Of a stretch of 64,000 nucleotides of DNA, positions 51,089 through 60,432 are shown piece after piece. Under the pieces are notes generated by a model. It saw only the letters and a program-made list of their open reading frames with translations. It was not told the origin of the DNA and did no database searches. Position numbers and translations under genes: made by a program. The DNA comes from Planctomycetota bacterium. Lineage in GTDB: Bacteria; Planctomycetota; MHYJ01; JACQXL01. Each line of letters begins with the position of its first letter. Within the stretch, counting starts at the first letter, position 1. The stretch lies in assembly GCA_016235865.1 (NCBI GenBank), contig JACRIK010000003.1, positions 310,001 through 374,000 on the forward strand, read 5' to 3'.

Positions 51089-51135
51089 TAACAAATGTAA
51101 CCCCTCCGTGGCGCCAGCGGCGCCACTACGGGATA

Positions 51136-51208: not shown

Positions 51209-51619
51209 ATGAAAAAGTTATTGGCCAGCGGAACCGTTCTGACCGGCGTATTAATCGCCTGGGGCTGCGGAAAGGCCGAACCGCCGGTTCAGCCAACAGG
51301 AGCGCCCAAGACCCCTGTGCAAAGCACTGGTCGGGAGCACCTACGAAGCGCACCGGGAGACACCGAGACACCCAAGGTTGAAACGACGGCAACAACAAAC
51401 GAGGCCCCAAAACCGGCCGAGGCGGTAAAAATTCCGGTACTACCCCACACCATCAGCGATGCCGAAGTGGGTAAGAAGGCCGTCTGTCCGGTTATGGGCA
51501 CTGAGGTCACCGTGACCAAGAATACCCTGTCCGCCGAATACAAGGGCAAGGTTTATTATTTCTGCTGCGGCGACTGTCCGGGTCCGTTCAAGGCCAATCC
51601 GGAAAAATACGCTAAATAG
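51209..51619 (+). CDS. YHS-domain lipoprotein
   Basis: 136 residues. Signal peptide and lipobox (LIAWGCGKAE), a Pro/Thr-rich spacer that includes a repeat-derived stretch (51328-51364), and a C-terminal YHS/TRASH domain (AVCPVMGTEVTVTKNTLSAEYKGKVYYFCCGDC). The domain binds metal through its Cys residues, often copper or other soft metals. Four bases before the ferritin-like gene. Confidence 0.82.
   Translation: MKKLLASGTVLTGVLIAWGCGKAEPPVQPTGAPKTPVQSTGREHLRSAPGDTETPKVETTATTNEAPKPAEAVKIPVLPHTISDAEVGKKAVCPVMGTEVTVTKNTLSAEYKGKVYYFCCGDCPGPFKANPEKYAK
51328..51364. repeat. Repeat fragment in YHS lipoprotein spacer
   Basis: Shares GGTCGGGA and GCGCACCGGGAGACA with the insert in korA (56059-56145). 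In frame, encoding TGREHLRSAPGDTE. Confidence 0.55.
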
Positions 51620-51622
51620 TTT

Positions 51623-52138
51623 ATGAAGAATAAGAATTTTAACGCCTCGGCCATCAAATGGCTGGGGCTGGCCATCGCCTCGGAGAAGGCAGCGCTGGAT
51701 GATTATCTTGAATACGCGCACCTGGCCCAGGATAAAACCGGCAAGGATATGTTCATCAAACTGGCCCAGGATGAGTTCCGGCACATGACCATACTGGAAA
51801 CCGAACGGGAACGGCTCCAAGCCGGACGCGCCTGGCTGTCCGTGAAAATACCCGCCTCGCCTGTCGAGCAGGCCATTACCCGGCTCGATAAAAACACCTC
51901 CGCGGCTCAGGCCGGCGAAACCCAGGTGCTGGAATTAGCCCTGAAGGCGGAGAAAAAGGCCGGAGAATTTTACCTGGCCCAGTCAGGGAAGGTGGACAGC
52001 CCAGCCGCCTGCGCGCTCCTGCAACGCCTGGCCCGGATGGAAAACGCACATTACCAGATACTCCAGGCCGAATTAGACAACATCAATAAGACCGGCTTCT
52101 GGATGGGATTGAGCGAAATATCAATGGAGGTGAACTAA
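51623..52138 (+). CDS. Rubrerythrin/ferritin-like protein
   Basis: 171 residues, helical. Ligand-type motifs SEKAALDDYLEYAH, KLAQDEFRHMTILE, LKAEKKAGEFY and ARMENAHYQILQAE place two E/ExxH pairs as in di-iron rubrerythrins. Likely peroxide detoxification. No rubredoxin domain is present; separate rubredoxins follow downstream. Confidence 0.83.
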   Translation: MKNKNFNASAIKWLGLAIASEKAALDDYLEYAHLAQDKTGKDMFIKLAQDEFRHMTILETERERLQAGRAWLSVKIPASPVEQAITRLDKNTSAAQAGETQVLELALKAEKKAGEFYLAQSGKVDSPAACALLQRLARMENAHYQILQAELDNINKTGFWMGLSEISMEVN

Positions 52139-52320: not shown

Positions 52321-52932
52321 ATGAAGATTAACGTTATTTTTTACAGCATGTACGGCCATATATACCAGCTGGCCGAGGCGGTGGCGGCCGGAGCTAAAGA
52401 AATAACCGGCGCCGAGGTGAAACTACTCCAGGTACCGGAGACCCTGTCCAACGAAGTTCTGGGCAAGATGGGCGCATTGGAAGCCAGAAAGCGCTTTGCC
52501 CATATCCCAACGGCGACGATGGACGATTTAGCCCAGGCCGATGCGATTATCTTCGGCGCGCCGACCAGATTCGGCATGATGTGCGCCCAGATGCGCACCT
52601 TCCTGGATTCTACCGGCGGGCTGTGGGCCAAGGGCGCGCTCGTCAACAAGGTGGGCAGCGTTTTCACCTCCAGCGCCACCCAGCACGGCGGACAGGAATC
52701 GACCATCCTGAATTTTCACACCACCCTGCTGCATCACGGGTTTATAATAGTAGGCGTGCCGTATTCCGAACAGCGCCAGATGGGTCTGAAAGAAATCTCC
52801 GGCGGCTCGCCGTATGGGGCGTCGACCATTGCCGGGCCGGACGGCGCCCGGATGCCCAGCGAAAACGAACTGGCCATTGCCCGATTCCAGGGCAGACACG
52901 TGGCGGAAATTACCGGACGTTTAATCGATTAA
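52321..52932 (+). CDS. wrbA: NAD(P)H:quinone oxidoreductase WrbA
   Basis: 203 residues. Flavodoxin-like FMN protein that does two-electron reduction of quinones. Seen: [19 protein letters not shown] (FMN phosphate loop), [31 protein letters not shown], and [15 protein letters not shown]. Preceded by a FNR-type box and a hairpin leader with AAAAGGAGG. Confidence 0.93.
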
Positions 52933-52983
52933 GGTATAAGTGTTTCCTTGACTTTAACCTGTAAATAAGATAAGGAGGTGAGT

Positions 52984-53142
52984 ATGGCCAAATGGAAATG
53001 CAAGGTTTGCGATTACATCTATGACCCTGAAAAAGGGGATCCGGATAATAACATTCCGGTTGGTACGTCTTTTGAGGACCTGCCCGACGACTGGGTTTGT
53101 CCTGAATGCGGCGTGGGCAAGGAAGAATTCGAGAAAGTATAA
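52984..53142 (+). CDS. Rubredoxin
   Basis: 52 residues. [16 protein letters not shown] and CPECG give the FeS4 site, with the conserved aromatic and acidic core. Electron carrier, likely to the rubrerythrin-type proteins around it. GGAGGTGAGT precedes the ATG. Confidence 0.96.
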
Positions 53143-53240: not shown

Positions 53241-53576
53241 ATGCGAAAATGGGTTTGCGGAACCTGCGGTTATGTCTGGGACGGTGACAACCCGCCCAAT
53301 AACTGCCCCAAATGCGGCGCGCCTAAGGATAAATTCACCCAGCTGCCCGAAGATAAAGCCAAGCTGGTTGACCGGTCCCGGCTGACCAATGACCTGCATA
53401 TGAAGCTGGAGGCCATAATGAATAAGGCGATTGCCGTGGCCGAGGATGGCATCAAGGACAATCTCGACCCGCCTTGCGTGGTGGTATTCAATAAAGCCAA
53501 GGCCGATGCGGAAATCATCAAGCAGATGATCAAGGCGGAAATCCAATCCCATATAAACAAAGGCAAGTGGGGATAA
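53241..53576 (+). CDS. Rubredoxin-like domain protein
   Basis: 111 residues. N-terminal rubrerythrin-type rubredoxin (CGTCGYVWDGDNPPNNCPKCG), then a helical C-terminal domain (LTNDLHMKLEAIMNKAIAVAEDG...KADAEIIKQMIKAEIQ). Possibly couples electron transfer to a partner ferritin-like protein. AAAAAGGAG precedes the ATG. Confidence 0.82.
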   Translation: MRKWVCGTCGYVWDGDNPPNNCPKCGAPKDKFTQLPEDKAKLVDRSRLTNDLHMKLEAIMNKAIAVAEDGIKDNLDPPCVVVFNKAKADAEIIKQMIKAEIQSHINKGKWG

Positions 53577-53625: not shown

Positions 53626-54051
53626 ATGCCAAAGGCATCAAAAGAATTGCTGGACCTGTTGAACACCGCTATTGCGCGTGAGTTGCAGGTTTCCATCCAG
53701 TACATGTGGCAACACATACTCTGGAGCGGCGTGAAACACTTTGCGGTCCAGGAAAAGTTCAAGGACATCGCGATTGAGGAGATGAAACACGCCGAATCCA
53801 TCGCCGAACGGCTCTTCTATCTGGACGGCATGCCCACCACCAAGCCGTCTCCGATAATTGTCGGCAAGAATCTCAAGGAGATGGTTGAGCAGGATGCCAA
53901 AGACGAAGAAGGCGCCATAAAACTCTACAAGGAAATCATTGAAGCGGCCGGCAAGGAAGGCGATGAGACTACCAAGCAGCTGTTCCGGAATATCCTGATG
54001 GAAGAAGAAGACCATCATGATACCTTTACATCCCTGTTGGAAGAGATTTAA
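53626..54051 (+). CDS. Bacterioferritin/ferritin-like protein
   Basis: 141 residues. Four-helix ferritin fold: NTAIARELQVSIQYMWQHIL, EEMKHAESIAERLFYLDG, EEGAIKLYKEIIE, ILMEEEDHHDTFTSLL, with di-iron ligands in expected places. Likely iron storage or peroxide removal. No haem-ligand Met was confirmed. Confidence 0.85.
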   Translation: MPKASKELLDLLNTAIARELQVSIQYMWQHILWSGVKHFAVQEKFKDIAIEEMKHAESIAERLFYLDGMPTTKPSPIIVGKNLKEMVEQDAKDEEGAIKLYKEIIEAAGKEGDETTKQLFRNILMEEEDHHDTFTSLLEEI

Positions 54052-54055
54052 TATT

Positions 54056-54180
54056 AGAGTCAGTTAGACCTATGAAGTTTACCCTGAGTAAACGAAGGGT
54101 TACCGACTCTTACATGGCGCCAAAGGCGCCATCTAACTCGCAGTAACTCACTGCGTTCGAACTACGAGTAAGAAAGGAGT
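54056..54180 (+). promoter_or_regulatory. Complex leader with two hairpins and a GGCGCC palindrome
   Basis: AGAGTCAGT (54056-54064) pairs partly with GACTCT (54105-54110). TGGCGCCAAAGGCGCCA (54114-54130) follows, then ACTCGCAGTAACTC...CTACGAGTAAG, ending in AAAGGAG. Confidence 0.6.
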
Positions 54181-54185
54181 TGACT

Positions 54186-54242
54186 ATGTCAGGATGTTGT
54201 TGTGGCGGAAGCAAGAAAAAGACGAAGAAGAGAAAGAAATAA
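54186..54242 (+). CDS. Cys/Lys micropeptide 1 (18 residues)
   Basis: MSGCCCGGSKKKTKKRKK, with AAAGGAG 8 bases upstream. Three adjacent Cys then a basic tail. Two relatives lie at 55550 and 55651. Stop TAA at 54240. Function unknown; possible metal or redox peptide binding nucleic acid or membrane. Confidence 0.6.
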   Translation: MSGCCCGGSKKKTKKRKK

Positions 54243-54333
54243 GAATAAAACCAACAGGGAATACTTACTAATCATTATGGGAAAGAAATACGGGTATTTC
54301 ACCTAAACCACATATAAGATAGAAAGGAAAGCT

Positions 54334-55443
54334 ATGCCCACCTGTTTCAAAGCAATAGCCGTTATTGCCATCGCCTTAATCATCACTGTAGGATGCTCCC
54401 AGACCGCAGCGAAACCGGAGCCGGTCCAGCCAACGGTGACTTTAAACTATGACTTCATCGACCGGGGCGCCACTCACCAGGCGGAAATGGAAGATGTCAT
54501 GGGTTCGGTGGTGGCCGGATACCTGATAGTAAACGAAGAATACCCCCGCTCGACGCTGGTAAACTATCTTTACAGAGGCAAGTGTTTTTATTTCCCGCTG
54601 GTAACCACGGCCCAGCCGGGCTTTTTCAAATCGCTCCAGTCCAACCCCAAGGTCTTTTTTGCGGTGGATAAATACACCCAATTGCACTGGTGGAGCGCCA
54701 ACGTCTTCGGCAAGGCCGAGATAATCAAGGAAACAGCTCGGGTGTCCCAATGGCTGGAGGAATATGAAAGAACCCTGGGCAAAGACGGGTTTAATTACCC
54801 GGCCCCAAAAGACGTGGCCAATACGGTCATTGTCAAGATTACGCCCGAAACCATCACCGGCCGGAAGATGAACGACCCGCAGAACCCGAATTACGCGCCG
54901 CGCCTGCCCTGGATGACCCTATCGCACGGACGGGCGGATACGGATGTTACGGCCCGGGCACTGCCGGTTGAAGTATCAGGATCCACCTTAGCCAAGGAAG
55001 TATCTTTGGGCGGAGTCGAACCCGCTGTGGTTGAATCAATCCTCAAAGGCGTGGGTGGTTGTCGGCTGAACATCGTAGACACCGAGTATCCATATTCCAT
55101 CCCGATGAGCGTGATGTCGTATACCAACGGTAATGTCATCCTGCACTCAAATAAAAAGGGCCAGAAGATGGATTTGCTCAGGGTTAACCAGAAAGTGAGT
55201 CTGGATTACCAGTGGTTCTGGAACAATTCCAAATGGACCGCGCTGTATTTGGAAGGCCACATAAATATCCTGGAAAAACCCGAAGAGATAGCCAAGGCGC
55301 TGGGCATGGGCGCGCCCCAGATGTTTGATAAGATGGCCCAGCGGATGGCCGTTTTGGAATTCGTTCCTGAAAAAATATCAGCCCGGCAGATAGAAATACC
55401 GATTAAATGGTATTCCCAGATGCCCGGCACCAAAACCAGATAA
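54334..55443 (+). CDS. Lipoprotein with two PNPOx-like split barrels
   Basis: 369 residues. Signal with lipobox (TVGCSQTAA). Two related halves each resemble pyridoxamine-5'-phosphate-oxidase-like split barrels (YLIVNEEYPRSTLVNYLYRGKCFYFPLV, PYSIPMSVMSYTNGNVILHSNKKGQKMDLL). The second half has WTALYLEGHINILE. Such fold members bind flavin or haem, but residues for cofactor binding could not be confirmed. AAAGGAAAGC precedes the ATG. Confidence 0.75.
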   Translation: MPTCFKAIAVIAIALIITVGCSQTAAKPEPVQPTVTLNYDFIDRGATHQAEMEDVMGSVVAGYLIVNEEYPRSTLVNYLYRGKCFYFPLVTTAQPGFFKSLQSNPKVFFAVDKYTQLHWWSANVFGKAEIIKETARVSQWLEEYERTLGKDGFNYPAPKDVANTVIVKITPETITGRKMNDPQNPNYAPRLPWMTLSHGRADTDVTARALPVEVSGSTLAKEVSLGGVEPAVVESILKGVGGCRLNIVDTEYPYSIPMSVMSYTNGNVILHSNKKGQKMDLLRVNQKVSLDYQWFWNNSKWTALYLEGHINILEKPEEIAKALGMGAPQMFDKMAQRMAVLEFVPEKISARQIEIPIKWYSQMPGTKTR

Positions 55444-55501
55444 CCTCGTCCCTAAAGGGACAAAACCAGACCCCGCCCCGTTGTAACGTCGGGGCGGGAT
55501 A

Positions 55502-55544
55502 AGAGTCAGTACGTCACTGCGTTTCTACTGACTCTAAAAGGAGT
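55502..55544 (+). promoter_or_regulatory. Leader hairpin AGAGTCAGT...ACTGACTCT at ribosome binding site
   Basis: 9-bp perfect stem (55502-55510 with 55527-55535), then AAAAGGAG. Covaries with the C/G version at 51136. Confidence 0.75.
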
Positions 55545-55549
55545 ATCCT

Positions 55550-55603
55550 ATGTGCGGATGCGGATGTGGCGCTAAAAAGAAGACCAAGAAGAAAAAGAAA
55601 TAA
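55550..55603 (+). CDS. Cys/Lys micropeptide 2 (17 residues)
   Basis: MCGCGCGAKKKTKKKKK, with AAAAGGAG about 6 bases upstream. Alternating Cys-Gly then poly-Lys. Similar layout to micropeptide 1 (KKKTKK shared). Confidence 0.6.
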   Translation: MCGCGCGAKKKTKKKKK

Positions 55604-55650
55604 CAGGAAACAAAAGCCGGCAACGTATTTAAGAGAGGAGAAGTTTCACT

Positions 55651-55692
55651 ATGTGTAAAACCTGCGTAAAGCATAAGAAGAAAAAAAGGTAG
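55651..55692 (+). CDS. Cys/Lys micropeptide 3 (13 residues)
   Basis: MCKTCVKHKKKKR, with AGAGAGGAG about 11 bases upstream. CxxC then His and a basic tail. Directly upstream of korA (31 bp gap). Confidence 0.5.
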   Translation: MCKTCVKHKKKKR

Positions 55693-55723: not shown

Positions 55724-57508
55724 ATGGATTACTCCATCAAAATCGGGGGCGAGGCCGGCCAGGGTCTGCAGAGCATCGGGCTTATCTTGGCCAAAACATT
55801 CAACCGCGCCGGCTATCATATTTTTACGGTCCAGGACTACGAATCCCGCATCCGGGGCGGGCATTCGGCTTTCTACCTGCGTTTCAGCGATAAGCCGGTC
55901 GAGGCGTCATCAACCCCAATAACCTTCCTGGTCTGTTTTGATAAACCAACCCTGTCTCTCTACCAGACCGATGTATCGCCATCCGGTTACATTATATATA
56001 ACTCTGATGCCATTAAAGAAGAAGTTCGGTTGAAGCCCTTTGACGAAGTTAATGGTCGGGAACTCGCTACTGCGAGACCGCGTAGTGCAACGAAGCGAAC
56101 TAAGCAACTGGAGCGCACCGGGAGACATTCCGTTCCGGTCCCGCTGGATACCCTAGCCCTGCAAACAGGCAATGACAAGATATATGCCAATTCCATTGCG
56201 CTGGGCGCGGTTATCGGCCTGGTCGGCTGCGATTTCAATATCCTTTCTGCCACCCTGGCCGAATTCTTCGGCGGCAAGCATAAACAAGGCGATGTAGTGG
56301 AAAAGAATATTCTTTCCGCTAAAACAGGGTTTGAGCTTATCAGGAATAAATTCCCGCAATGCCCGTTTCCCTTGGCGGTTAAACCACGCAACAACCGGAT
56401 GGTCATCACCGGCAGCGAGGCCATTGCCCTAGGCGCGCTGGCGGCCGGATGCAAGTTTTATTCCGGCTATCCGATGACCCCGTCCACCGGCATCCTGAAT
56501 TATATGGCCCACGCGGCTGATAAAATGGGCGTGGTAGTGGAGCAGGCCGAGGACGAGATTGCGGCCATCAATATGGCGCTGGGCGCATCGTACGCCGGCG
56601 TGCAGGCCATGACCGCCACTTCCGGCGGCGGATTCGCCCTGATGATTGAGGGCCTGTCACTGGCGGCCATGACCGAGACGCCTATTGTCATTGCCCTGGG
56701 CCAGCGGCCGGCCCCGGCCACCGGATTACCCACCCGAACCGAGCAGGCTGACCTGGAATACGCGCTCTATGCCGGGCACGGCGAATTCCCCCGGGCCATC
56801 TTCACGCCGGGCAATGCCCAGCAGTGTTTTTATCTGACCGCCCACGCTTTCCAGATTGCCGAGAAATACCAGATTCCGGTCTTTGTCCTGACTGACCAGT
56901 ATCTGGCTGATTCCTATCAGGATTTTGAGCCGTTTGATATATCCAGGATTGATGCCACCCGCTATATTATGACGGATGGAGAATTATCATCCGTGAAAGA
57001 ATACAAACGCCATGCGCTTACGCCGTCCGGCATCTCGCCCCGGGCCCTGCCCGGCCAGTCCCAGCACCTGGTTATCACGGACAGCGACGAACACACTGAA
57101 GACGGACATCTGACCGAGGATTTGCAGGTCCGAACCCAAATGGTGGATAAGCGCCTGCGCAAATACGAGGCGCTCTCCAAAGAGGTTATTGCGCCGTCTT
57201 TAGAAGCAAATACTAAAGCCAAGACCATCTTGGTTTCCTGGGGTTCTAATTACGGCGTGGTCAAGGAAGCGGCTCAAGCGCTTGATTACGCCGCCCTGCA
57301 CTTCCAGCAGGTCTGGCCATTTCCCAAGGATGATTTTCTCCGGCTGACCCAAGGCGCCCAAAGGATTATCGTCATAGAAAATAACGCCACCGGACAGCTG
57401 GCCCGGTTAATAAAAAGCCAGACCGGCTTAACAAATATTAGTTCTATTAATAAATATAACGGATTGCCGTTTACAACAGATGAGCTAACCGCAAAGATTA
57501 CAAAATAA
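55724..57508 (+). CDS. korA: 2-oxoacid:ferredoxin oxidoreductase, fused gamma-alpha subunit
   Basis: 594 residues. Residues 1-190 are the gamma domain (GGEAGQGLQSIGLILAKTFNRAG, DYESRIRGGHSAFYLR). Residues 200-594 are the alpha domain (ITGSEAIALGALAAGCKFYSGYPMTPSTG...EDEIAAINMALGASYAG...TSGGGFALMIEGLSLA). Residues about 110-136 are a basic, repeat-derived insert (56059-56145). With the beta subunit it oxidises 2-oxoacids, probably 2-oxoglutarate, to acyl-CoA and CO2 while reducing ferredoxin. Such enzymes are oxygen-sensitive, which fits the surrounding detoxification genes. Confidence 0.92.
   Translation: MDYSIKIGGEAGQGLQSIGLILAKTFNRAGYHIFTVQDYESRIRGGHSAFYLRFSDKPVEASSTPITFLVCFDKPTLSLYQTDVSPSGYIIYNSDAIKEEVRLKPFDEVNGRELATARPRSATKRTKQLERTGRHSVPVPLDTLALQTGNDKIYANSIALGAVIGLVGCDFNILSATLAEFFGGKHKQGDVVEKNILSAKTGFELIRNKFPQCPFPLAVKPRNNRMVITGSEAIALGALAAGCKFYSGYPMTPSTGILNYMAHAADKMGVVVEQAEDEIAAINMALGASYAGVQAMTATSGGGFALMIEGLSLAAMTETPIVIALGQRPAPATGLPTRTEQADLEYALYAGHGEFPRAIFTPGNAQQCFYLTAHAFQIAEKYQIPVFVLTDQYLADSYQDFEPFDISRIDATRYIMTDGELSSVKEYKRHALTPSGISPRALPGQSQHLVITDSDEHTEDGHLTEDLQVRTQMVDKRLRKYEALSKEVIAPSLEANTKAKTILVSWGSNYGVVKEAAQALDYAALHFQQVWPFPKDDFLRLTQGAQRIIVIENNATGQLARLIKSQTGLTNISSINKYNGLPFTTDELTAKITK
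56059..56145. repeat. In-frame repeat insert in korA
   Basis: Encodes GRELATARPRSATKRTKQLE and neighbours. Shares GGTCGGGA and GCGCACCGGGAGACA with 51328-51364. Contains CTACTGCGAGACCGCGTAG, a small dyad. Confidence 0.6.
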
Positions 57509-57555
57509 CATCTTTGTATTCATCTGTGTAATCGGTGTAATCTGTGGTTGCAATT

Positions 57556-58410
57556 ATGTCAACAGTATTCGACAATAACACCAAGCCGGCCTGGTGCCCG
57601 GGTTGCGGCGACTTCGGTATCCTCAATGCAGTCAAGAAGGCATTGACAGAATTAGGTAGGGCGCCACACCAGGTGGCCCTGATATCCGGCATCGGCCAGG
57701 CCTCTAAGCTCCCGCACTATCTTAACTGTAATGTCTTTGACGGCCTGCACGGCCGGCTCCTGCCCGCGGCCCAGGGCGTCAAGATTGCCAATAAAGACCT
57801 GACCGTCATTGCCGTGGGCGGGGACGGCGACAACTACGGCGAAGGCGGCAACCATTTTATCCACGCTATCCGGCGCAATGTCAATATCACCCTGCTGGTC
57901 CACAACAACCAGGTTTACGGGCTGACCAAGGGCCAGGCATCGCCCACCAGCGATTTGGGAATGGTCACCAAGGTCCAGCATGACGGGGTGTTATTAACGC
58001 CCTTTAACCCGATGGCTATTGCTATTGCCTTGGACTGCGGGTTTGTGGCGCGGTCATTCGCCGGCAACCCGGCGCACCTGACTGACACCATCAAGCAGGC
58101 CGTCAATCATAACGGCTTTGCGCTGGTGGACATACTCCAGCCCTGCGTGACCTTTAATAAAATCAACACCTACAAATGGTATCGTGAACGGGTCTATGAC
58201 ATCGGTAAAGAAGCAGGGTATAATCCGTCAGACCGTCTCAAGGCATTTGCCAAATCGCTGGAATGGGGCGACAAAATACCTATCGGTTTGATATACAAAA
58301 AAGATAAGGCATCCTATATTGACTCGGTTTCTGTGCTTCAGGATAAACCACTGGTCAATCAGCCGCACCAACCAGAAAAAATAACCGATTTGCTGGCTGA
58401 ATTTGTATAG
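57556..58410 (+). CDS. korB: 2-oxoacid:ferredoxin oxidoreductase beta subunit
   Basis: 284 residues. TPP-binding beta subunit: WCPGCGDFGILNAVKKAL, GIGQASKLPHYLNC, HGRLLPAAQGVKIAN, and the TPP/Mg motif GGDGDNYGEGGNHFIH...NVNITLLVHNNQVYGLTKGQ. ATG at 57556 preferred over an in-frame GTG at 57544. Spaced 47 bp after korA by an ATCTGTGTAATCGGTGTAAT-type repeat. Confidence 0.94.
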   Translation: MSTVFDNNTKPAWCPGCGDFGILNAVKKALTELGRAPHQVALISGIGQASKLPHYLNCNVFDGLHGRLLPAAQGVKIANKDLTVIAVGGDGDNYGEGGNHFIHAIRRNVNITLLVHNNQVYGLTKGQASPTSDLGMVTKVQHDGVLLTPFNPMAIAIALDCGFVARSFAGNPAHLTDTIKQAVNHNGFALVDILQPCVTFNKINTYKWYRERVYDIGKEAGYNPSDRLKAFAKSLEWGDKIPIGLIYKKDKASYIDSVSVLQDKPLVNQPHQPEKITDLLAEFV

Positions 58411-58418
58411 AGGGTAGT

Positions 58419-58890
58419 ATCACCTCGCCCCATAACCACTATCACCACGCCCCATAACCTCTCCCGCCCTGCCAGAGGTGAGGTATAGCCCTCAGAGAGA
58501 ACCTATCCCGCCCTGCCAGAGGTGAGGTATAGCCCTCAGAGAGAACCTCTCCCGCCTTGGCAGAGGTGGTCTATCGCCCTCAGAGATAACCTCTCCCGCC
58601 CTGATAGAGGTGGTCTATCGCCCCCAGAGATAACCTCTCCCGCCCTGATAGAGGTGAGGTACCGCCCTCAGAGAGCGCCTCTATCGCCCTGCCAGAGGTG
58701 GTCTATCGCCCCCGGAGATAACCTCTCCCGCCCTGATAGAGGTGGTCTATAGCCCTCAGAGAGAACCTCTACCGCCCTGATAGAGGTGGGGTATAGCCCT
58801 CAGAGAGCGCCTCTATCGCCCCCAGAGAGGTGCTCTATAGGGGCGGGAGAGGGGCTCTATCCAGGGGGGTAGGGGGGTCTCTTGCCCTAA
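58419..58890 (-). repeat. Array D: 44-bp tandem repeat made of two 22-bp halves, with G-run block
   Basis: From 58458 a 44-bp unit repeats at 58502, 58546, 58590, 58634, 58678, 58722, 58766 and 58810 with no indel. The two 22-bp halves of a unit match at about 13 of 22 positions (core CGCCCTNANAGA), so the basic period is 22. Two further units (58419, 58441) precede it after a 5-bp phase change. G-rich segments (GGGGCGGGAGAGGGG, CCAGGGGGGTAGGGGGGTCT; 58836-58881) close the array. Confidence 0.87.
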
Positions 58891-59060: not shown

Positions 59061-60326
59061 TTACTGTCCTATCCCGCCGAGAATCTGCAGACCCAAGTCA
59101 TAAGCCGCGACATAGGCGTAACTGCCTGCAACAAAGACGCCCTCGGCAGGGCCCGGCGTATAGTAAGAGCCGGCTGAAGCTGGAGCGGCTGGGTTAGAGA
59201 TATCTATAATCTGCAGCCCTGAATATGCATCCGCGACATAGGCGTAACTGCCTACCACATAGACATCCACGGCAGAACTCGGTGTATTGTGAGAACCGGC
59301 TAAAGCGGGAGCGGCTGGATTAGAGATATTTATGATTTCCAGCCCTGACTCAGCATCAGCGAGATAGGCATAACTGCCTGCCACATAGACGTTATAGGCA
59401 TGGCCCGACGTATAGCAAGAGCCAGCTAAAGCGGGAGCGGCTGGATTAGAGATATTTATAATTTCCAACCCTGCAGTCCAAGCCGCGACATAGGCGTAAC
59501 TGCCTGCCACAAAAATGCCACCAGCAGAGCCCGACGTAGCGTAAGAACCGACTAAAGCGGGAGTGACCGGGTTAGAGATATCTATAATCTGCAACCCTGA
59601 ATTAGCATCCGCGACATAGGCATAACTACCTGCTACGAAGACGCCACCGGCAGAGCCCGGCGTATCGTAAGAACCAGCTAAAACTGGAGTGACCGGGTTA
59701 GAGATATCTATAATCTGCAACCCTGAATTACCATCCGCGACATAGGCATAACTACCTGCCACATAGACGCCCAAGGCAGCGCCAGGCGTATCGTAAGAGC
59801 CGACTAAAACGGGAGTGACAGGGTTAGAGATATCTATAATCTGTAGCCCTGAACTCCCGTCCGCAACATAGGTATAACTGCCTGCTACATAGACATCGTA
59901 TGCCCAAGCCGGTGTATTGTAAGACCCGACCAACTGGGTATTGAAACCGGTGGTAAAACTCCAAGGATTACCGGTTGTCGTTCCGGCCGAGTTTTTGGAA
60001 TCAATTCTCCAGTAATATGTGGTGGTGTAAGCAAGCGCAGTCGGAGAAGTATAACTAAGGGCCGTTATACTTGTCGTAATAGGCGACCAGCCGGTAGAGG
60101 TCGTGCCGAGATAGACATCATAAGATGTCGCGCCGCTGGCCGATGCCCAACTCAATTGCAGGGTAGCTGGCACACCCGTCTCCCCATTAGACGGCATAGG
60201 TGAAGTTACCTGATTTGGTGGTGTGTTACTACTGCCACTCGTAGATTTATCGCAGAAGCCGCCATAACCCAAGGCAATAATAACTCCCAGTAAAATAGCC
60301 AAGGTTATTTTTGATATGGTATTCAT
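59061..60326 (-). CDS. Secreted seven-repeat LVIVD beta-propeller with Fn3-like domain
   Basis: 421 residues. Signal peptide (ITLAILLGVIIALGYGGFC, possible lipobox), one Fn3-like domain ([20 protein letters not shown]...YYWRIDSKN), then seven repeats of about 42 residues of the type GSYAYVADGNSGLQIIDISN, which should fold as one seven-bladed propeller. Surface or periplasmic; binding partner unknown. GGAGG precedes ATG 60326. Confidence 0.85.
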   Translation of the reverse strand: MNTISKITLAILLGVIIALGYGGFCDKSTSGSSNTPPNQVTSPMPSNGETGVPATLQLSWASASGATSYDVYLGTTSTGWSPITTSITALSYTSPTALAYTTTYYWRIDSKNSAGTTTGNPWSFTTGFNTQLVGSYNTPAWAYDVYVAGSYTYVADGSSGLQIIDISNPVTPVLVGSYDTPGAALGVYVAGSYAYVADGNSGLQIIDISNPVTPVLAGSYDTPGSAGGVFVAGSYAYVADANSGLQIIDISNPVTPALVGSYATSGSAGGIFVAGSYAYVAAWTAGLEIINISNPAAPALAGSCYTSGHAYNVYVAGSYAYLADAESGLEIINISNPAAPALAGSHNTPSSAVDVYVVGSYAYVADAYSGLQIIDISNPAAPASAGSYYTPGPAEGVFVAGSYAYVAAYDLGLQILGGIGQ

Positions 60327-60432
60327 ATAGTTACCTCCATCTATAATATACATACAATTCCTATTTTGTCAAGGTGAACCCGATAATATTTCGGCCTGTT
60401 TGCATCCCAACCTACATAGGGATAGGCAGGTC

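Follow-up and report, generated by a model that had tools for sequence, protein, structure and literature searches.

Tiny Cys-then-Lys reading frames in oxygen-defence operons: a probable family of unannotated microproteins

Three open reading frames (ORFs) with products of 13-18 amino acids lie in a cluster of oxygen-defence genes in a Planctomycetota genome, raising the question of whether frames this short are genes at all and, if so, what their products could do there. The DNA analyzed is a 64,000-nucleotide stretch of assembly GCA_016235865.1 (contig JACRIK010000003.1, positions 310,001 to 374,000, forward strand), hereafter called the window and numbered from its first letter. From comparative sequence, of which all our evidence consists, we judge with a probability of about 0.93 that the ORFs are real genes linked to oxygen defence, and they probably belong to an unannotated family of microproteins serving it. 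The predicted products pair a short thiol-bearing head at the N-terminus (CGxCG, CGCGCG or something close to these) with a tail that is rich in Lys and free of acidic residues, and their genes have translation signals, show constraint at the protein level and recur in oxygen-defence operons of two phyla; we further infer that the peptides are translated and work with the operon enzymes.

Three short frames and their ribosome-binding sites

A first-pass annotation of the window had described three peptides with a Cys cluster followed by a basic tail, each behind its own ribosome-binding site. All three were found letter for letter, stops included, with GGAG placed 6, 6 and 10 nucleotides (nt) 5' of the ATGs of ORFs 1, 2 and 3, respectively:

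54173..54179, + strand: Shine-Dalgarno AAAGGAG for peptide 1, read from the sequence
54186..54242, + strand: tiny ORF 1, MSGCCCGGSKKKTKKRKK, exact letters with the stop included; its tail is shared with ORF 2
55536..55543, + strand: Shine-Dalgarno AAAAGGAG for peptide 2, directly 3' of a strong hairpin at 55502-55536
55550..55603, + strand: tiny ORF 2, MCGCGCGAKKKTKKKKK, with a CGCGCG head as in G005 (a genome of the same order, see below) and the Omnitrophota relatives
55635..55640, + strand: Shine-Dalgarno GAGGAG for peptide 3, read from the sequence
55651..55692, + strand: tiny ORF 3, MCKTCVKHKKKKR, CxxC plus a Lys tail; it stops 31 nt 5' of korA

Both strands of the window were scanned for ORFs of 8-45 codons with at least two Cys and at least 30% Lys/Arg. 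Only ORFs 1-3 combined the Cys-then-Lys order with a ribosome-binding site, the remaining matches being Arg-rich chance frames. The KKKTKK[RK]KK-stop tail was found at two places in the 2.67-Mb genome, both of them within this locus, and in none of 100 shuffles of the window. Because the tails of ORFs 1 and 2 differ by three synonymous changes and one conservative Arg/Lys change, the two look like paralogues retained at the protein level. If the family is defined by an ATG with a Shine-Dalgarno sequence, a paired Cys-Gly head, a Lys-rich tail and fewer than 30 codons, ORF 2 belongs to it fully, ORF 1 belongs with a CCCGG head, and ORF 3, with CKTC, fits only loosely.

Relatives in the same order and in Omnitrophota

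With the ferritin-like gene of the cluster used as an anchor, relatives were found in the window's own order. Genome G005, from another family of that order (97% complete), encodes a ferritin orthologue with 69% identity, and 28 nt 3' of it, at the same place as ORF 1, stands a tiny ORF, MTNCGCGCGKKAKAKKKGKK, with AAGGAG upstream; it is the last gene behind ferritin and precedes a terminator-like hairpin. A second genome of the same genus (G007, 56% complete) carries a copy of the tiny gene at the same place behind its ferritin orthologue. In both genomes an acetyl-CoA synthetase-like gene, identified by eye, follows the tiny ORF (G005 L119 8867-10951; G007 L053), and its product starts with a Cys/Lys-rich extension, MDCNCCGTPQDKNKKACKPP, that is perhaps a fused version of a similar head. 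Of 392 genomes sampled from the phylum, only G000 and G005 showed a Lys-tailed tiny ORF of the CGCG type. Other CGCG-K matches in the phylum were set aside because they look like chance or like the N-termini of longer proteins, with a recurring MCDxCGCG start that we take to be HypB. A search for the exact tail in 59 relatives gave chance matches only, and no tiny ORF adjoined the KorA homologues of the phylum.

Relatives outside the phylum were sought by scanning 84,980 genomes for a Shine-Dalgarno sequence and ATG followed by CGCGCG-x-K/R-x-K/R. There were nine matches, five of which had a good ribosome-binding site, the CGCGCG head, a nearby Lys and a stop within 13-19 codons: three from Omnitrophota (M[GS]CGCGCGTKKKKKKAKKK), one from an alphaproteobacterial metagenome-assembled genome (MAG) and one from a Christensenellaceae MAG. 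The single matches of the scan were alphaproteobacterial MPGCGCGCGTKKK, Christensenellaceae MGCGCGCGCGTKGK and, from a Victivallales MAG, MPCGCGCGARRRGCSG; the first two look genuine, each without a second supporting genome. In all three Omnitrophota the tiny ORF is the first gene of a defence cluster encoding rubredoxin together with thiol peroxidase (or superoxide reductase), flavin reductase, flavodiiron protein, PNPOx, glutaredoxin and thioredoxin reductase, with rubrerythrin in two of the three, and in both genomes with upstream sequence a gene for an Rrf2 regulator lies 5' of it. Because nothing but the peptide pattern led to these genomes, the context that they share with the window is independent evidence.

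The converse approach, in which 60 Omnitrophota superoxide-reductase loci (567 kb) were taken regardless of any peptide, yielded six more tiny ORFs that share this layout, most of them headed by CGxC(G) (for example, MGCGKCGAKKKKKAKKK and MGCGSCGPKKPKKKAKKKK); a seventh match was an unrelated frame. Markov resampling of this DNA gave 0-1 matches and reversed DNA gave none; two sets of other loci, of 193 kb and 240 kb, were likewise free of matches. The heads were then combined into a genome-wide pattern (M[GS]CGxCG/CGCGCG, Lys-rich), which matched 26 of 354 Omnitrophota genomes, with no match in the control direction. The genome samples from the window's phylum and from Omnitrophota have no member in common. 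All 26 are of the expected ORF type and layout, 24 of them 13-26 amino acids long, and GGAG mostly lies 6-10 nt 5' of the ATG. Relatives beside rubredoxin and korA genes, for which the first-pass annotation had proposed a six-frame search of related genomes, were found in Omnitrophota, and its view of the three peptides as a family gained look-alikes there and in the window's order.

Context was then compared by counting seven kinds of oxygen-defence gene (flavodiiron protein, superoxide reductase, rubredoxin, rubrerythrin, thiol peroxidase, PNPOx and ferritin). At least two kinds lay within 6 kb in 15/26 tiny-gene loci versus 0/20 random 12-kb windows drawn from Omnitrophota genomes, many of them identical to the tiny-gene genomes (p = 1.5e-5, Fisher's exact test). 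In those operons the tiny ORF shares its strand with the neighbouring genes, and a frequent arrangement places it between fprA and the rubredoxin gene. Its position is often mid-operon, 11-68 nt 3' of fprA or overlapping it (in G460 its start falls within the final fprA codons), and it is followed by different genes. KorA/KorB are encoded in the same stretch as the tiny gene in six genomes (G638, G434, G486, G668, G520 and G717), as in the window. In G416 and G669 the tiny ORF lies about 190 nt 5' of a ribonucleotide reductase gene. In G394 (L087 7164, + strand), a 32-residue membrane peptide with a CGKCGCGC tail, MIWLWIILGIVVVVILFRKFCGKCGCGCSPKK, is encoded 0.7 kb 5' of the tiny gene; it matched nothing in Pfam or NCBIfam.

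Codon comparisons indicate protein-level constraint. Between the tiny ORFs of G392 and G394, nine codon differences are synonymous and one is not (expected synonymous fraction 0.185, p = 2e-6); for G486 and G554 the counts are seven and one, and the remaining pairs carry less information. The tiny forms listed contain no Asp or Glu and, after Met1, almost no hydrophobic residues, so the membrane-binding tail that had been proposed for them is less likely; their net charge is +5 to +12 over 13-26 residues. Gly follows the second Cys in 16/22 CGxC forms, as in rubredoxin knuckles, and the residue between the cysteines varies freely (CGKC, CGSC, CGTC, CGVC and CGHC). Three Omnitrophota ORFs of 42-46 residues (G680, G556 and G560) fuse the tiny head, via a short basic stretch, to a desulforedoxin-like four-Cys domain, and the fusion in G556 adjoins genes for superoxide reductase and a ferritin-like protein.

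In the window itself, the oxygen-defence cluster noticed in the first-pass annotation spans 51.2-58.4 kb, all on the + strand, with ORF 1 between the ferritin-like and PNPOx genes and ORFs 2 and 3 between the PNPOx lipoprotein gene and korA:

51209..51619, + strand: YHS-domain lipoprotein-like protein (Pfam)
51623..52138, + strand: rubrerythrin-like protein (Pfam)
52321..52932, + strand: WrbA-like flavodoxin/FMN reductase (Pfam)
52978..53142, + strand: rubredoxin (ORF with CKVC and CPEC knuckles)
53241..53576, + strand: rubredoxin-like domain protein (Pfam RUBY_RBDX)
53626..54051, + strand: ferritin-like protein (Pfam; in synteny, its orthologues in G005 and G007 precede the tiny gene)
54334..55443, + strand: lipoprotein with two PNPOx-type domains (Pfam)
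55724..57508, + strand: KorA, 2-oxoacid:ferredoxin oxidoreductase alpha (KorAB also in the six Omnitrophota operons with a tiny gene)
57544..58410, + strand: KorB (Pfam)

An intergenic element, CGGGATAAGAGYCAGTA, occurs at 51129, 52272, 53166 and 55495 (0.15 expected by chance), 5' of the genes for the YHS, WrbA-like and rubredoxin-like proteins and of ORF 2, where a strong hairpin flanks the element on either side (z = -4.8 for this stretch). It is possibly a shared regulatory or REP-like element of the cluster. Further repeats lie 3' of korB: a 44-nt unit in eight copies (58395-58878), and a 126-nt unit in five copies (59102-59905) within a minus-strand ORF (59061-60353) for a repeat protein.

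Weighing the reading and its rivals

Several observations weigh against a family serving oxygen defence. The tiny genes are patchy, seen in only about 7% of the sampled Omnitrophota by motif-based searches blind to heads of other types (CCCGG or CKTC, for example), in MAGs whose incompleteness blurs absence; within the window's phylum they were seen only in its own order. At 10 of the 26 Omnitrophota loci, defence genes are few or absent. A second sub-family, MGCGTC[AG]PKKKxP... (L247-L251; G598, G745, G518, G645 and G731), lies in its five genomes between genes for a CBM11-domain protein and a STAS-PilZ protein, or beside one of them, a context unrelated to oxygen defence. The copy in G007 is broken by a 20-nt palindrome, CCTGCCTGACGGCAGGCAGG (L053, about 1425-1445), which looks like a small mobile palindromic element; the first-pass annotation had named loss of the start, the Cys residues or the ribosome-binding site, or frame-breaking indels, as what would speak against its proposal, and while the former are conserved, an indel of this kind was found in G007 only. 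Support for the fused domain is marginal, as PF06397 matched the fusions at E = 1e-4 to 5e-3, all just below the gathering score, and a structure model of a fused form (mean pLDDT 74) gave no fold match. Peptide 3 had no relative of its own, and ORF 3 is the least certain of the three. Finally, the peptides are too short for phylogeny. Context makes it likely that the window peptides and the Omnitrophota family share an ancestor, 17 residues being too few for proof; convergence or transfer between lineages is a possible alternative.

How might such a peptide act? The head resembles half of a rubredoxin or desulforedoxin site, and two or more peptides could hold one Fe2+ or Zn2+ by four thiolates; alternatively, the neighbouring thiols might serve as a small redox couple. 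The flexible cationic tail could anchor the head to nucleic acid or to acidic proteins such as rubredoxin, flavodiiron protein or ferritin. Under oxygen stress the peptide would then buffer or carry metal or thiol for the non-haem-iron enzymes. Metal-knuckle chemistry, which we hold tentatively and at slightly below even odds, is preferred over a dithiol in view of the Gly that follows the second Cys, the fusions to a desulforedoxin-like domain and the non-haem-iron proteins encoded nearby. Profile searches added little: PF06397 did not match the tiny forms scanned (20-26 residues), no Pfam or NCBIfam model matched those long enough to scan, and phmmer against the PDB gave weak zinc-ribbon matches only.

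The best-surviving rival, unlikely but not negligible, is a dithiol redox peptide in which the lysines lower the thiol pKa and which carries electrons from the operon's thioredoxin reductase or glutaredoxin to ribonucleotide reductase or peroxidase. Both CGxC and CGC count as minimal motifs of the thioredoxin/PDI type, and the free variation between the cysteines suits such a role. The idea keeps its weight because thioredoxin reductase and glutaredoxin genes occur in many operons with a tiny ORF and two copies lie 5' of a ribonucleotide reductase gene. Against it, the Gly mostly found after the second Cys matches metal knuckles, the fusion partner is a metal domain, and thioredoxin activity normally requires the thioredoxin fold.

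The strong charge and lack of acidic residues would also suit a polyanion binder, whose Lys tail binds DNA, RNA or polyphosphate while its thiols ward off iron or radicals. We consider this improbable: the gene contexts give no pointer to nucleic acid, and the tail alone is weak evidence, since any polycation binds nucleic acid in vitro.

Hairpins bring in a different alternative, that the ORF is a cysteine- or lysine-sensing leader which, with a hairpin, controls the next gene (rubredoxin or superoxide reductase) by attenuation or differential mRNA stability, leaving the peptide without a job. In Omnitrophota a strong hairpin lies directly 3' of 17/29 tiny ORFs overall and of 11/14 in defence operons, compared to 4/100 neighbouring genes of the same operons, and mycobacterial cysteine-responsive short ORFs provide a precedent. 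The hairpins start shortly 3' of the stop codon (for example, L155, L244 and L251), and many have no clear U-run. Classical attenuation is demoted because none of the window's three ORFs has a hairpin behind it and the ORF is often mid-operon, close behind or overlapping fprA with varying genes next. In addition, the G005 ORF stands last, the entire Lys tail is conserved, beyond any control codons, and a leader would have no reason to be fused to a folded domain. We take the regulatory leader seriously as a rival, one weaker than a working peptide and at low odds. The hairpin itself may raise the level of a short upstream message or belong to a cis-regulatory unit, and it suggests that more peptide is made than neighbouring enzyme.

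Chance ORFs in A-rich intergenic DNA are very improbable, and for ORFs 1 and 2 we rejected them: very short ORFs are common, the G007 copy is broken and peptide 3 has no relative, but recurrence in another phylum with zero control matches, the shared gene context, the synonymous bias and the uniform ribosome-binding sites speak against them. For ORF 3 by itself, a chance ORF is unlikely, though less remote.

The most specific form of the preferred reading is that the peptides are natural stand-alone rubredoxin half-sites of 13-26 residues, at least two chains round one iron, acting as a poly-Lys-steered electron or iron shuttle among rubredoxin, flavodiiron protein, superoxide reductase and ferritin in oxygen-exposed anaerobes. 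We regard this full picture as distinctly unlikely, but if true it would rank them with the smallest redox or metal proteins in nature. Gene callers generally skip ORFs this short, and a component of oxygen-defence operons that appears to be conserved would have gone unnoticed for that reason, in keeping with the first-pass remark that such genes escape annotation; the open-access literature searched yielded no account of these peptides. The microproteins are tied to the question of how anaerobes survive oxygen and may offer the smallest natural metal-thiolate proteins; as a whole gene product has about 17 residues, synthetic peptides suit direct testing.

Comparison with known systems

Rubredoxin carries two CxxCG knuckles in about 50 residues, whereas the tiny forms have one knuckle at most. 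Desulforedoxin, or the desulfoferrodoxin N-terminal domain (PF06397), is likewise a small iron-thiolate unit of superoxide defence and is fused to the tiny head in three genomes, but the tiny forms lack its second Cys pair and fold and have no Pfam match. Metallothioneins and other Cys-rich metal-buffer peptides are short and rich in Cys, and the tiny forms resemble them as candidate metal buffers; they differ in having 2-3 Cys per chain and a long basic tail, again with no Pfam match. The C(P)XCG zinc-finger micro-proteins of Haloferax require two motifs per chain, and their measured metal content is variable (PMC11241148). They share very small size and CxxCG knuckles with the present peptides, which in contrast combine one knuckle with a poly-Lys tail in 13-26 residues; none of the tiny forms has two CxxCG motifs, the second appearing only in the three fusions. 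The peptides may work like the Haloferax proteins, desulforedoxin and rubredoxin, but they belong to none of these groups.

Two further systems are instructive. METP, a designed undecapeptide with two Cys, dimerizes round iron to give a rubredoxin-like tetrathiolate (PMC8434281), showing that two chains of about the length considered here can make such a site; as an artificial design with a beta hairpin, it is a chemical precedent and not a relative. MtrI of Methanosarcina is longer and unrelated to the tiny forms, and it binds the Mtr methyltransferase complex, acting on oxygen exposure (PMC12774963); like them, it is a small protein of an anaerobe, linked to oxygen and previously unannotated.
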